Shown piece by piece: positions 10,034 to 15,292 of a stretch of 35,976 bases of DNA. The stretch's first letter is position 1, and every line of letters begins with the position of its first letter. This DNA comes from Candidatus Niyogiibacteriota bacterium (GTDB lineage: Bacteria; Patescibacteriota; Minisyncoccia; JACROR01). The stretch is from the NCBI GenBank assembly GCA_016214345.1, contig JACROR010000032.1, positions 1-35,976 of the forward strand, in the 5' to 3' direction. The position numbers and the translations under genes were made by a program. The notes below the pieces were generated by a model, which was not told the origin of the DNA, did not search any database, and saw only the letters and a program-made list of their open reading frames with translations.

Positions 10034-10573
10034 ATGGGCATAGATTTACATCCTTTTTTGGTTCATTTTCCCATAGCGTTTTTGTTTACATATTGTATTT
10101 TTGAAATATTTCGTTTTAAGCGATTGCTTGCGTTGCCATCATGGTTTTATATAAAAGGCGCGATATTGGGCATCGGAGTTTTAGGAGGCATGGTCGCGCT
10201 ACAGTCCGGAGAATTACTTGAACATAAGTTTGATAGCACCGCGCTTAAGGCGTTAGTAGAGATTCATGCTTTTTGGGGATCTGCCACCATATCTATTTTT
10301 TCTGTTTTGGTCGCGGCTTACGCGGTGCGATGGTTTATTATGGCTGGTTGGGACCAGTCCATTTACCATCTGCCCGTTATAGGAAATATTTTTCGTTTGG
10401 TTTCGCCTATTTTGAATGTTTTGAGCAAATGGCTTATAGATTCGCCGCTTGCCGCGCTGATTGCCATAATTGGTTTAGTCGCTCTTTTAATCACAGGTAC
10501 CTTGGGTGGCGCCATAGTATATGGGCCAAATGCGGACCCGTTTGTTTATTTTGTTTATAATTTATTTTTTTAA
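10034..10573 (+). CDS. DUF2231-like membrane protein
   Basis: MGIDLHPFLVHFPIAFLFTYCIFEIF... with four hydrophobic segments; family assigned by eye. Confidence 0.65.
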   Translation: MGIDLHPFLVHFPIAFLFTYCIFEIFRFKRLLALPSWFYIKGAILGIGVLGGMVALQSGELLEHKFDSTALKALVEIHAFWGSATISIFSVLVAAYAVRWFIMAGWDQSIYHLPVIGNIFRLVSPILNVLSKWLIDSPLAALIAIIGLVALLITGTLGGAIVYGPNADPFVYFVYNLFF

Positions 10574-10575
10574 AT

Positions 10576-10809
10576 ATGTGTTTAGCGACACCGAGCAAAG
10601 TTATAAAAATAGACGGGGACTGGGTGAAGGTAAAATCTTTGAACCATACGCACAGAGCCAATATAAGTCTTTTGAAAAATAAGAGAATTTCTTTAGGCGA
10701 TTATCTTTTGATACACGGCGATTTGGCCATACAAAAATTGCCGGAAGACGAGGCGTTGAAAATTTTGAAAATGATCAATAAAAATTCCGCGCTCTTTAAT
10801 AAAAAATAA
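10576..10809 (+). CDS. hypC: Hydrogenase maturation chaperone HypC/HupF family
   Basis: N-terminal MCLATPSKVIKIDGD and GDYLLIHGDLAIQKLPEDEALKIL. Confidence 0.93.
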   Translation: MCLATPSKVIKIDGDWVKVKSLNHTHRANISLLKNKRISLGDYLLIHGDLAIQKLPEDEALKILKMINKNSALFNKK

Positions 10810-10822
10810 AAAAGGAGATGTG

Positions 10823-11425
10823 ATGGACGGCATAAGAATGTCCTGTGTATATAGTTGGAATTGCGACAAGGCCAAGGGGTTGGGAGTTTCCGATATTTTA
10901 TTGAATTTCGCAAAGAATTCGGAGACGGACGTTCAGAAAATTCAAGAAACGCTTTTTTTGCTGGAAATCGGAAAATTTTATAAGAAGATTGCCGAAATTA
11001 ACTCCATGTCAGACCCTTTTGATAAAAGAATCGTTTCTTATTATTGGACGGGACAGCCGAACTTGGCTGGCGAACTTTGGCATAATTATACGACATTATT
11101 GCCTTTGCTTGCGGTGCCTTTTTCATTTTTAAAAATTGGATTGATTGATAACTGCTTAGCGCGCGCCGGAGAAGTGGTTCGGACGGGAAAGGGCGGTCTG
11201 GTGGCGCGCTATCGTCCTTTGATCAAAAATGAAACGGGACTTGCCATTTCCGAAACATTTCAAGAAAAAAATATTGAAAAAGTGTTTGGCGGCCCTGTTA
11301 AAAAGGGAGATTTGATAATCTTTCATTTTTCTAACTTTACGGGGAAAATAAATTTCCACAACGCCGGCATTTTGGATAAAATAACAAAACAATCCCTGAA
11401 TAAATTTAATGCCGAACATAAATAA
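10823..11425 (+). CDS. Uncharacterised protein, possibly DUF6390-like, next to hypC
   Basis: AAAAAAGGAGATGTG before ATG 10823; ...INSMSDPFDKRIVSYYWTGQPNL...GKGGLVARYRPLI...VKKGDLIIFHFSNF. DUF6390 resemblance is from memory only. Confidence 0.7.
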   Translation: MDGIRMSCVYSWNCDKAKGLGVSDILLNFAKNSETDVQKIQETLFLLEIGKFYKKIAEINSMSDPFDKRIVSYYWTGQPNLAGELWHNYTTLLPLLAVPFSFLKIGLIDNCLARAGEVVRTGKGGLVARYRPLIKNETGLAISETFQEKNIEKVFGGPVKKGDLIIFHFSNFTGKINFHNAGILDKITKQSLNKFNAEHK

Positions 11426-11456
11426 AACAGTCCGCCCCGGGCAGACTGTTTTTTTA
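11425..11456. terminator. Bidirectional intrinsic terminator between convergent operons
   Basis: AAAACAGTCCGCCCCGGGCAGACTGTTTTTTT, A tract on one side and T tract on the other. Confidence 0.85.
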
Positions 11457-11468
11457 TTTGACGCGCGA

Positions 11469-12695
11469 TCAATGTACCGAGCAGGTTATGCATGGATCGT
11501 ATGCCCGGATGAGCATTTCTATTAAATGTTTTAGTTCTTTTTGGCTCGCGTTCGGATATTGTTTTAATAGCGTGGTGGCGGATGTCTCCATGGAAGTGAG
11601 ATTCTGGACAGTGGGCGTGATGATGTTGGCGTAAGTTATAACGCCATTTTTATTTATGCGGACTTCGTGATAAAGACCTCCGCGCGGAGCTTCCACCGCG
11701 CCCACACCCCGCAGAGGCGGATTTTTAGATGGTTTAGCAATGAGGTTGTTTAATTTATTGCGTAGCAGTTCTTCTATTATTTTTATGCCGTCTTCCAGTT
11801 CAAAAACGGTTTCCATTATTTGGGCTAAATTATTGTGGAATGGATTTTGGAAATCAAGTCCTGATTGGAGCGCGATTTTTTGATGGGGACCGTGATACAG
11901 GCGAGCCATGGATCCTACCATGTATTCTCCACCTTTATAGGCGCCAAATTTTGCCGTTGATCCGTTGCGCACTTCTTCTTCTATATTTTTTTTGTAGTCG
12001 GATATTTTGAATTTCGCGCGTTTGTTGGAAATCACTTTTCCATTTTGTTGAGTCAGCAATTCCAGATCAACTTTAAGCCGCGGATAATTCAGACTTTTAA
12101 AAATTTGGAGCAGGGCGCGCGCCTTGGGGATGTTTCGTTTTATTTTATCCTGAAGATTTCTAAGTTCTTTTTCGTTGGGTATTTTGTGAAATCCTCCGAC
12201 AGTGGTTTGCGTGGGATGCACATTTCTGCCCGCTACCACATATGCGATTTCATCGCCTATTTCTTTGAGCGCGAGCGCCATAGCGAATTTTTTCGGGTCT
12301 TTTTGGTTAAGTTCCGTTATCCGGTCAATGCCGATATAGTCGGGAAGCGCGAGAAATACCGCGTGCAATATATGACTTTGCACGTTTTGTCCGATTTGCA
12401 TGAGTCGCCGTAAAAGCTTGGTCTGGTTGCTTATTTTTATTCCCAGCGCCGCTTCCGATGAGGCGAGGGACGCCAAATTATGGGCAATGGGACATACTCC
12501 GCATATGCGCGGAGTTATCCAGTGCATTTCTTCCAGAGTTTTTCCCACGAGTATGCCTTCAAATAAACGTTCGCCCTCCAAGACATTCAATTTAACGAGA
12601 CCCTTTTCCCAGTTAATCGTTAAACTGCCATGGCCTTCTATTTTGGCTATGTATTCTTTCGCCCGTTCCATAATTAAATTCGGTTTTTGCGGCAT
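11469..12695 (-). CDS. hydA: NiFe hydrogenase large (alpha) subunit, group 3b-like
   Basis: L1 motif RICGVCPIAH and C-terminal YDPCITCSVH followed immediately by TGA; operon with delta, gamma and beta subunits. Confidence 0.95.
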   Translation of the reverse strand: MPQKPNLIMERAKEYIAKIEGHGSLTINWEKGLVKLNVLEGERLFEGILVGKTLEEMHWITPRICGVCPIAHNLASLASSEAALGIKISNQTKLLRRLMQIGQNVQSHILHAVFLALPDYIGIDRITELNQKDPKKFAMALALKEIGDEIAYVVAGRNVHPTQTTVGGFHKIPNEKELRNLQDKIKRNIPKARALLQIFKSLNYPRLKVDLELLTQQNGKVISNKRAKFKISDYKKNIEEEVRNGSTAKFGAYKGGEYMVGSMARLYHGPHQKIALQSGLDFQNPFHNNLAQIMETVFELEDGIKIIEELLRNKLNNLIAKPSKNPPLRGVGAVEAPRGGLYHEVRINKNGVITYANIITPTVQNLTSMETSATTLLKQYPNASQKELKHLIEMLIRAYDPCITCSVH

Positions 12696-12705
12696 ATTTA
12701 TGGGG

Positions 12706-13494
12706 TTATTTTTTGTAATTTTTCAACGCTTGTTTGAAGACATTTTTATATTCAGGAATTTGATTGAAAAACATCGTAACATGGTTGTTAATTTCTTTTT
12801 CGGAGGCGAATCGGCGTAAGATTTTCACCAATGCCGGAATGTTCGCTTCTTCGCGTACGCCGAAACATCCGTAGCATGGGCTTCCGCCGGAAATGCAAAT
12901 GGCTTTGCAACCGCCTTGCGTAATGGGGCCGAAGCAGATTTTTTTATGGAGCAGGCGGCATTGGTTTCCGGCTAACTTGCATTCCAGGCATACGGAATAT
13001 CTGCGATAGCGTGGAGTTTTACCGGATAACAACTCTTCCAGAGTTCGCACCAACTCATCTTCGTCAACCGGACAACCGTGAATCATATGGTTAACTTTGA
13101 CGTAAGCCGAAAGGGGAAGCGCGTCTATTCCTTTGGGTTTGTAATTCGCGCCGTAAATTTTCGCGTACCATTTTTTTCGTTCGGACTTGTTCATAATGCC
13201 CGGGATGCCGGCAATGGAAGCGCACGCGCCGAGAGATATTATCAGTTTTGATTTTTCCCGGAGTTCGCGAAGCAGGTCTATTTCGTCTTGAGTGACGGGT
13301 GTGCCTTCAATTATGGCGGCGGCGTAAGGGCCGTCCTTTATTTTTTCTTGGCCCAGCCGCCAATTCACTATATTAAATCTGTCAGCTAAATGGACCAACC
13401 GTTCTTTTATGGATACGAGTTTTACTTCGCACCCCTCGCAGTCTGTAAAATCATAAATCGCTATTTTTAGTTTTTTTGAAAATCTATTTTGCAT
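12706..13494 (-). CDS. hydD: NiFe hydrogenase small (delta) subunit
   Basis: DFTDCEGCEVKL, EGTPVTQDE, SLGACASIAGIPG, HGCPVDEDEL, GGCKAICISGGSPCYGCFG. Confidence 0.95.
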   Translation of the reverse strand: MQNRFSKKLKIAIYDFTDCEGCEVKLVSIKERLVHLADRFNIVNWRLGQEKIKDGPYAAAIIEGTPVTQDEIDLLRELREKSKLIISLGACASIAGIPGIMNKSERKKWYAKIYGANYKPKGIDALPLSAYVKVNHMIHGCPVDEDELVRTLEELLSGKTPRYRRYSVCLECKLAGNQCRLLHKKICFGPITQGGCKAICISGGSPCYGCFGVREEANIPALVKILRRFASEKEINNHVTMFFNQIPEYKNVFKQALKNYKK

Positions 13495-13526
13495 TTTTTG
13501 CTTTGAATTTTTAAATAATATCAGCC

Positions 13527-14354
13527 TTAATCCCAGTTTTTATCTATCTCGTCTAAATTAAATACCGGTCCGTCCGCGCAAACATATTTATTTCCGGTGA
13601 CGCAGTGCTGGCAGCGTCCCACGCCGCATTGCATTTTGCGTTCCATGCTTATAAATATGCGCTTGTCGGAAATGCCCATGGGATTTAACAAATGTTCCAG
13701 GGCGTTTACCATTGGCCCGGGACCGCACATCGCCACCATGGTATTGGCGGGATTTATTTTAAGTTCCAGCAGACATTCGCTTATGAGCCCGGTCCTGCCT
13801 TCCCAGTTGCAAATCGGCTTGTCCACGGTAAGCATTATTTGTATATTTTTTTGCCAGAATTTCATACGGTTTTTCATTAATAAATCCGGGGGGGTCGAGG
13901 CGCCGTATAAAAGATGTACGATTCCGAATTTTGCGCGATTATTTATTATATATTCTATCAGCGCGGCAATGGGCGGCAGGCCGCATCCTCCGGTAATCAT
14001 TATAATGTCTTTGCCGAGGAAGTTTTCTATGGGATAGCCATTACCGTAAGGTCCGCGTAAAGTTATTTTACTCCCTTCTTTCATGTGATGTAGCGCGGAA
14101 GTGGTTTGGCCGATTTTTCGTACCACTATGTCTATATGATTGCGGTTAAGCGGATCAGAGGCGGGGCCGAAAGGCGCTTCTCCGTAGCCCCAAACGCCCG
14201 CCAAAACGAATTGTCCTGGCGTGAAGATTAAACCGTTTTTTTGCGCGGAAAATTTTTTACCATCGGTTCTTTTCAGGCGGAAAAGTTTGACACTGGGCGA
14301 ATGTTCTTCAATTTTGGCTATTTTTACCGATATGGGCGCGTAAATGTTTTGCAT
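13527..14354 (-). CDS. hydG: Hydrogenase gamma subunit, FAD/NAD(P)-binding oxidoreductase with C-terminal [2Fe-2S] motif
   Basis: GPYGNGYPIENFLGKDIIMITGGCGLPP, CGPGPMV, MQCGVGRCQHCVTGNKYVCADGPVF. Confidence 0.94.
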   Translation of the reverse strand: MQNIYAPISVKIAKIEEHSPSVKLFRLKRTDGKKFSAQKNGLIFTPGQFVLAGVWGYGEAPFGPASDPLNRNHIDIVVRKIGQTTSALHHMKEGSKITLRGPYGNGYPIENFLGKDIIMITGGCGLPPIAALIEYIINNRAKFGIVHLLYGASTPPDLLMKNRMKFWQKNIQIMLTVDKPICNWEGRTGLISECLLELKINPANTMVAMCGPGPMVNALEHLLNPMGISDKRIFISMERKMQCGVGRCQHCVTGNKYVCADGPVFNLDEIDKNWD

Positions 14355-14356
14355 AT

Positions 14357-15292
14357 TTATGCGCGGTTAGCGATTTTATATTTTTGCGTTATGTTTATCA
14401 GTATTTTTTCTATGTCAATTCGCGCGGGGCAAGCGGCCTGGCATCTGCCGCAGGCGACGCATTGCGGCTCGCCAAATTCTTCATAACTTCGCGCGAATTT
14501 ATGATAAAACCAGTTGTAATATCTTTCTTTAAGAGTTTTATGAAAATTATGGCCGCCCGCGACGCGGCTGAATTCAGGCAGGGTGCAGGCGGCCCAGTTC
14601 TGGCACCGTTTACAACTTTTACCGGCTATATCCATGGAATCTTCCGTAGAAAAACAATGGCACAAGGGGCACACATAAGCGCAGATTCCGCATCCTAAGC
14701 AGATTTTGGCCAATTCATCCCAAATTTGCGGATAATTTTTCCATGACCAAGCCACCGCGTCTTTAAGCATTTCCGCGTCTTGTAGCAAGAGACGCAGTTT
14801 TGGCATGGTTTTGTTTTCTGCGTATTGGCTGGCAGGAATATTTTTTGACGGACGCGCTAATGCCATTTTTTTAATTAAAACCGTTCCTTTGGCGGTTACT
14901 GGCATTACGGCAAAATCTTTTGGTGATAATTTTTGTAATATTAAATCTCCGCCGGGCGGTATGTTAAATTGTTCGTCAGTCAGCCCTATAATTGTGGTTT
15001 TGGAACGGCGTCGGAAATAGTAGTAATTTTTGTTGGGTCGCGACATTATTTCATCCAAACGAGTTATGGCTTCCAGGTCGCGGAGCGGCAGTCCGAACAG
15101 GATAAACGGCTTTATGGGGGGCAGGGTTTTTAGGCGGCTCTTTTTGATATCAAAATTAAAAGCAGTTTCTTGCGCGGGGAAAAGGTATTGTTTGGGCGCT
15201 AGTATGTTTTTTCGGCAATCTATAACCACGAATTTTTTCTTTAATTCGTTTAGAAAGCCGTTAAGATTTATTTGAAGCGGCGCTGTCGTCAT
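14357..15292 (-). CDS. hydB: Hydrogenase beta subunit, 4Fe-4S sulfur reductase-type
   Basis: CLGCGICAYVCPLCHC and CVACGRCQAACPARIDI; first gene of the hydBGDA-type operon. Confidence 0.93.
   Translation of the reverse strand: MTTAPLQINLNGFLNELKKKFVVIDCRKNILAPKQYLFPAQETAFNFDIKKSRLKTLPPIKPFILFGLPLRDLEAITRLDEIMSRPNKNYYYFRRRSKTTIIGLTDEQFNIPPGGDLILQKLSPKDFAVMPVTAKGTVLIKKMALARPSKNIPASQYAENKTMPKLRLLLQDAEMLKDAVAWSWKNYPQIWDELAKICLGCGICAYVCPLCHCFSTEDSMDIAGKSCKRCQNWAACTLPEFSRVAGGHNFHKTLKERYYNWFYHKFARSYEEFGEPQCVACGRCQAACPARIDIEKILINITQKYKIANRA

Follow-up and report, generated by a model that had tools for sequence, protein, structure and literature searches.

Tailless group 3b-type [NiFe] hydrogenases of CPR bacteria and a candidate maturation route beside them

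Tailed and tailless large subunits described so far

Most [NiFe] hydrogenases need a cleavable C-terminal tail on the large subunit and some do not, and the locus described here bears on the reason for this difference. Pyrococcus-type sulfhydrogenases I and II (HydBGDA, ShyABCD) carry a short tail that goes with a protease of the HycI type. Large subunits that are tailless by nature have been listed for groups 2b, 2d, 4c, 4e and 4g, group 3b not being among them, and it is the Hyp machinery that matures such enzymes (PMC7294309). When the tail was trimmed artificially, E. coli Hyd-2 and the soluble hydrogenase of R. eutropha lacked nickel or cofactor; for the membrane-bound hydrogenase of R. 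eutropha the tail was not essential for cofactor incorporation (PMC7294309). The iron group on the HypCD scaffold is held by HypC Cys2 and possibly also by a HypC histidine (His51 in E. coli), and a review of 2025 counts the source of CO among the unsolved questions (PMC12134894).

The enzyme analysed here is like the tailless enzymes of groups 2b, 2d, 4c, 4e and 4g in having no C-terminal extension and, apparently, no protease step (PMC7294309). Those enzymes are H2 sensors or membrane-bound energy-converting hydrogenases, whereas the present one is of the cytoplasmic group 3b type. It also resembles the 'hyd1' hydrogenases of Jaffe et al. 2020 (PMC7304191), a 3b-related clade of CPR bacteria in which the small, gamma and beta genes accompany the large-subunit gene and a HypC-like gene lies close by, but the main text of that study is silent on the C-terminus and on maturation. 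The clade of the present enzyme matches hyd1 and a long-branched tailed clade matches 'hyd2' of the same study (PMC7304191), the assignment being made by gene content and branch shape and not by the sequences of Jaffe et al.

The operon and the end of its large subunit

The window, that is the whole stretch of 35,976 nucleotides that was analysed, is one contig of a 691-kb Patescibacteria/CPR genome in 32 contigs that is 92.6% complete. One large subunit of the phylum sample (G186) agrees in every residue with that of a named Nealsonbacteria contig (L113), which places the phylum as Patescibacteria/CPR. The features are summarized in Table 1. Judged by its sequence, the window operon specifies a group 3b-type [NiFe] hydrogenase with four subunits that belongs to the CPR-specific hyd1 clade. 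The small, gamma and beta subunit genes adjoin the large-subunit gene (12706-15292), as in group 3b enzymes. The four subunits, their functional order and the best family matches are in accordance with the Pyrococcus-type sulfhydrogenases, but the large subunit scored far under the equivalog cut-offs (HydA 245 bits, cut-off 880; ShyA 239 bits, cut-off 700), which marks it as a distant, CPR-type relative of the 3b enzymes. All four ligand cysteines are present in both CxxC pairs (RICGVC and DPCITC). The NCBIfam models of Pyrococcus-type large subunits extend past the L2 histidine, whereas the window enzyme is tailless.

Table 1. Positions of the hydrogenase and maturation genes in the window and in related loci
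Feature	Position	Strand	Match or basis
Large (catalytic) subunit, 408 aa, without C-terminal extension	window 11469..12695	-	NCBIfam HydA/ShyA, Pfam NiFeSe_Hases
L1 motif RICGVC, first ligand Cys pair	window 12492..12509	-	sequence
L2 motif DPCITCSVH (11472-11498), stop TGA (11469-11471) directly behind	window 11469..11498	-	sequence
Small (delta) subunit, 262 aa	window 12706..13494	-	best families ShyD/HydD; Oxidored_q6
Gamma subunit, FAD/NAD(P)-binding	window 13527..14354	-	HydG-gamma, AsrB, ShyC families
Beta subunit, 4Fe-4S protein	window 14357..15292	-	HydB/ShyB families, Fer4_22
Terminator-like hairpin, 13 pairs, between two converging operons	window 11424..11452	.	consensus scan
HypC-family chaperone, 77 aa, with Cys2	window 10576..10809	+	PF01455, 60.6 bits vs cut-off 28.5
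DUF6390 protein, 201 aa, HypC-like C-terminal domain	window 10820..11425	+	PF19927, 1.4e-10, 41.5 bits vs cut-off 25
DUF2231 membrane protein, ends 2 bases before hypC	window 10034-10573	+	
HypC-HydE fusion	L061:8149-9432	-	
HypC-HydE fusion	L196:4836-6002	+	
HypC-HydE fusion	L197:3061-4335	+	
HypC-HydE fusion	L198:2994-4418	+	
HypC-HydE fusion	L199:2068-3438	-	
HypC-HydE fusion	L200:2636-3982	+	
HypC-HydE fusion	L179:2614-3945	+	
Run HypC - EamA - DUF6390	L083:377-2239; also L077, L080, L103, L106, L201, L203, L204		

The protein encoded by the ORF at 11469-12695 (minus strand) ends in ...RAYDPCITCSVH, followed by TGA at 11469-11471. With the L2 motif included the end reads ...MLIRAYDPCITCSVH-TGA, and the in-frame codons behind it are TCG CGC GTC AAA TAA (SRVK, stop). 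An earlier note on this DNA had read a large subunit that stops exactly at DPCITCSVH-TGA with SRVK and a TAA in frame behind it; the codons agree with this, and all 29 members of the clade end alike. Its claim that the mature C-terminus is encoded directly was likewise borne out, the stop standing right behind the L2 residue. The predicted hairpin starts 17 bases beyond the stop, so the 3' end of the gene is compact. The stop codons of the 21 long window genes were TGA in 4 and TAA in 17, thus TGA is an ordinary stop here; with this and the uniform ending of the clade (29/29), an assembly error or a recoding of TGA was rejected.

Distribution of the tail and of its protease

The large subunit was searched for in 380 genomes of the phylum, 58 of which gave a match, the complete sequences being of two kinds, tailless and tailed, and a further 80 named homologues were sampled. 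The tree comprised 133 large subunits aligned without the tail. Every large subunit of the hyd1 clade (29/29) ends at the last L2 residue, the stop being TAA, TAG or TGA; this residue is Gln in place of His in one member, and the end branches within the clade reach about 1 change per site. The sister CPR enzymes of hyd2 keep a tail, mostly of 7-9 aa, e.g. FLKVKWL. Scoring of the C-terminal extensions, which had been suggested as a check, thus separated a tailless CPR clade from its tailed sisters, and the trait is by this comparison one of the whole CPR hyd1 lineage and not a private mutation. The earlier note had allowed that homologues all ending here would make it a known lineage trait; the lineage part stood, but no published description of tailless 3b enzymes was found in the literature, which was covered in part.

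Among the 80 named homologues 12 were tailless, of which 4 were from CPR and 8 from Myxococcota, Acidobacteriota, Nitrospirota and Desulfobulbales. The tree revealed two supported tailless clades, one of CPR (29 rows, SH-aLRT 96) and one of the other phyla (8 rows, 100). The best tree required two changes to taillessness, and a single tailless clade was not rejected (AU test, p 0.113). The tails of the other sampled 3b-type enzymes were of 5-37 aa apart from this one further clade, which supports the view that the ending is unusual for 3b. The second tailless 3b-type clade consists of L149, L158, L161, L165, L166, L172, L177 and L178, and a HycI-like gene was absent from the fetched stretches of its 8 loci. 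The 'HydG' adjoining the tailless enzyme in L172 was rejected, as it is ThiH.

The presence of the protease was compared with that of the tail. The 26 genomes with a tailless hyd1 enzyme, that of the window included, gave no match to PF01750 (HycI) or to the divergent HycI-like profile A1, and the same two profiles match in tailed genomes, usually adjoining or overlapping the large-subunit gene. The search of the genome for a HycI-type endopeptidase that the earlier note proposed was therefore negative for both profiles, which supports its statement that protease processing should not be needed. Over the 133 loci a protease was found nearby in 77/96 tailed and 0/37 tailless cases, a contrast resting on about two evolutionary events for which a sign test cannot reach 0.05. 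Only 1 of the 28 tailed CPR loci was without a nearby protease (G039, at a contig end). The HycI-like gene of hyd2 lies within about 4 kb of the large subunit, mostly adjoining it. In this divergent protease family D16, D56 and H84 are invariant, and we take these to be the metal-binding positions of HycI.

On these grounds it is highly probable that hyd1 is a tailless clade in which the mature C-terminus is translated directly and a HycI-type protease is dispensed with. The hyd1 large subunit would be translated with its mature C-terminus, skipping the nickel-checked cleavage step, and would fold to the mature form without this checkpoint, as regulatory (H2-sensing) hydrogenases do. We infer that the enzyme works and acquires its metal centre with no such checkpoint. 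In this clade a cytoplasmic group 3 enzyme is found naturally trimmed, and the same radiation contains tailed sister enzymes for comparison.

Maturation genes and the readings that they allow

The search for maturation genes covered HypA, HypC, HypD and HypF; HypA, HypD and HypF were not detected in the window genome (G000), and HydG, HydE and an [FeFe]-hydrogenase were also not found there. The window HypC starts MCLATP and lies above the cut-off of PF01455. HypC was present in 50/58 hydrogenase genomes, many of which are metagenome assemblies, HypD in 12/58, and the genomes with a true HypF are almost identical to those with HypD. HypD and HypF were both absent from the single-contig hyd2 genomes G146, G167 and G189 and from the well-assembled hyd1 genomes G021 and G022. 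Weak HypF matches in most genomes were partial and confined to single HypF segments, and were set aside as likely acylphosphatase, YrdC or TsaD/Kae1. The window genome thus appears by its gene content to be without most of the standard metal-centre genes.

Three putative maturation cassettes were found in the CPR genomes with these hydrogenases. Cassette A consists of HypC/D/E with HypF or its C-terminal part. Cassette B, found in six hyd1 genomes, is HypC fused to a radical-SAM HydE, all four proteins scanned being above the cut-off of TIGR03956 (255-296 bits); two of the six genomes also have HydG, and no [FeFe]-hydrogenase was detected in these two. No published description of the fusion was found in the part of the literature that was covered. 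Cassette C is the run HypC - EamA transporter - DUF6390 and occurs in hyd1 and hyd2. Large subunits 88-93% identical carry, in the same adjoining place, A in G116, G073 and G213, B in G184 and C in G173; all three cassettes are missing from 7 hydrogenase genomes. The loss of the tail is independent of the cassette, since hyd1 lacks it whichever of A, B and C is present and hyd2 has it together with C. The transporter is conserved within cassette C beside CPR hydrogenases, and in the window the DUF2231 gene sits where many relatives carry the EamA gene adjoining hypC.

DUF6390 was found in 31/58 hydrogenase genomes and in 1/322 others (Fisher 2e-28), and in 1/17 genomes with cassette A or B (HypD or HypC-HydE) against 30/37 without (Fisher 1.6e-7), the tests treating genomes and species as independent and not being corrected for phylogeny. 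Weak matches in L116, L119 and L121 are likely HypC and were rejected. Compared with HypC, the C-terminal part of DUF6390 aligned (hhalign 96.7%, E 3.5e-10), Cys112 falling on HypC Cys2 and His169 on the histidine of the GDxxxxH motif, so that a cysteine and a histidine stand at the iron-ligand positions of the HypC/HypCD scaffold. The only invariant columns are Gly78, Cys112 and His169. HypC was also the top match, weakly, in the search of solved structures (E 0.0016), and an AlphaFold prediction of DUF6390 made with two sequences had a pLDDT of 41. The N-terminal domain differs from HypC (CGPD, YWxGN and PHHSFHV in relatives), and unlike the HypCD scaffold most carriers of DUF6390 are without HypD. 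No mention of DUF6390 was found in the literature, of which the coverage was partial. From these comparisons DUF6390 is a candidate maturation factor. In the window protein the PF19927 match covers the C-terminal part only, two motifs that the relatives have in the N-terminal part, CGP(D) and PHHSFHV, are missing, and no EamA gene stands beside it as in most relatives. The shortened window copy is by its sequence a divergent or partly degenerate member, and because of these features its function is less sure than in the relatives.

An alternative maturation route is suggested by gene content as likely but unproven. There is about an even chance that the iron group is handled not by the canonical scaffold but by HypC and the HypC-like DUF6390. 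In most relatives the EamA transporter (not seen in the window) would join these two, and one may guess that a precursor is imported through it. The wider proposal, that CPR bacteria build the [NiFe] cofactor via interchangeable non-canonical cassettes, HypC+EamA+DUF6390 or HypC-HydE+HydG, with hyd1 also skipping the proteolytic checkpoint, is tentative and falls slightly short of even probability. In the one cassette DUF6390 would stand in for HypD/E/F, perhaps acting on an imported precursor; in the other, radical-SAM [FeFe]-maturase chemistry would be brought to a [NiFe] enzyme. If the swap of cassettes is true, HypDEF would have a natural replacement, and with HypC-HydE/HydG the CO and CN ligands could come from an anoxic source.

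Other explanations were weighed against this reading. The earlier note had proposed that one nonsense substitution could have removed a short extension; such a recent change in this genome only, or a mistake in the sequencing or assembly of the TGA, is one rival. The four-residue frame SRVK behind the stop, the short tails of the P. furiosus type and the NCBIfam models running 4 positions beyond the match would fit such an event, but since three different stop codons follow one and the same position in the 29 members, and no conserved tail-like codons lie behind the stop anywhere in the clade, the supposition was not supported and we give it almost no credence. Cleavage of an internal site by a protease of an unrelated family, or readthrough of the TGA followed by removal of the SRVK tail, is hardly more probable. 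The protease search did cover the HycI type only; however, every member of the clade ends with the L2 residue, most of them at a TAA or TAG, and TGA is an ordinary stop here.

The remaining two readings concern the metal centre. A normal HypABCDEF set could lie elsewhere and the hyp cluster could be missing from the incomplete window assembly (92.6%, 32 contigs), with DUF6390 as an accessory factor; some hyd1 relatives do carry HypD, E and HypF. This is improbable, as HypD and HypF are absent also from single-contig genomes that are 99% complete and from genomes of 5 and 10 contigs with a rating of 99-100%, DUF6390 hardly ever occurs together with HypD/HydE (1/17 vs 30/37), and the cassettes swap at one place. 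The enzyme may instead hold no NiFe(CN)2CO centre, with another metal or none, so that only its NAD(P), flavin and FeS parts serve and tail and protease were lost with a useless checkpoint. The missing HypA, HypD and HypF of the window genome and the CPR group 4-type relatives reported without ligand cysteines (PMC7304191) agree with such a state, which is unlikely. Against it, the whole clade conserves the four ligand cysteines and the residues around them, HypC is retained, and tailless hyd1 enzymes occur also with full HypC/D/E/F cassettes; hyd2, which is also without HypD/F, retains a protease with conserved acidic and His residues.

Some further observations were made in the related loci. 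HypC-HydE is directly beside the [NiFe] large-subunit gene in L061 and L179, and HydG adjoins it in L061 and L200. The named Falkowbacteria contig L179 has the large subunit, HycI, a short HypA-like ORF and HypC::HydE in one run. A divergent relative of the large subunit in G282 (L096:5889-7103, plus strand) has an altered L1 (RFCGDC) and no L2 CxxC, and by its sequence is likely without a [NiFe] site. In a hyd2 subclade (L091, L097, L100, L102, L104, L105 and others) L2 ends in Asn (DPCMSCATN) followed by a FLKIxW tail, and the HycI-like gene overlaps the 3' end of the large-subunit gene on the opposite strand.
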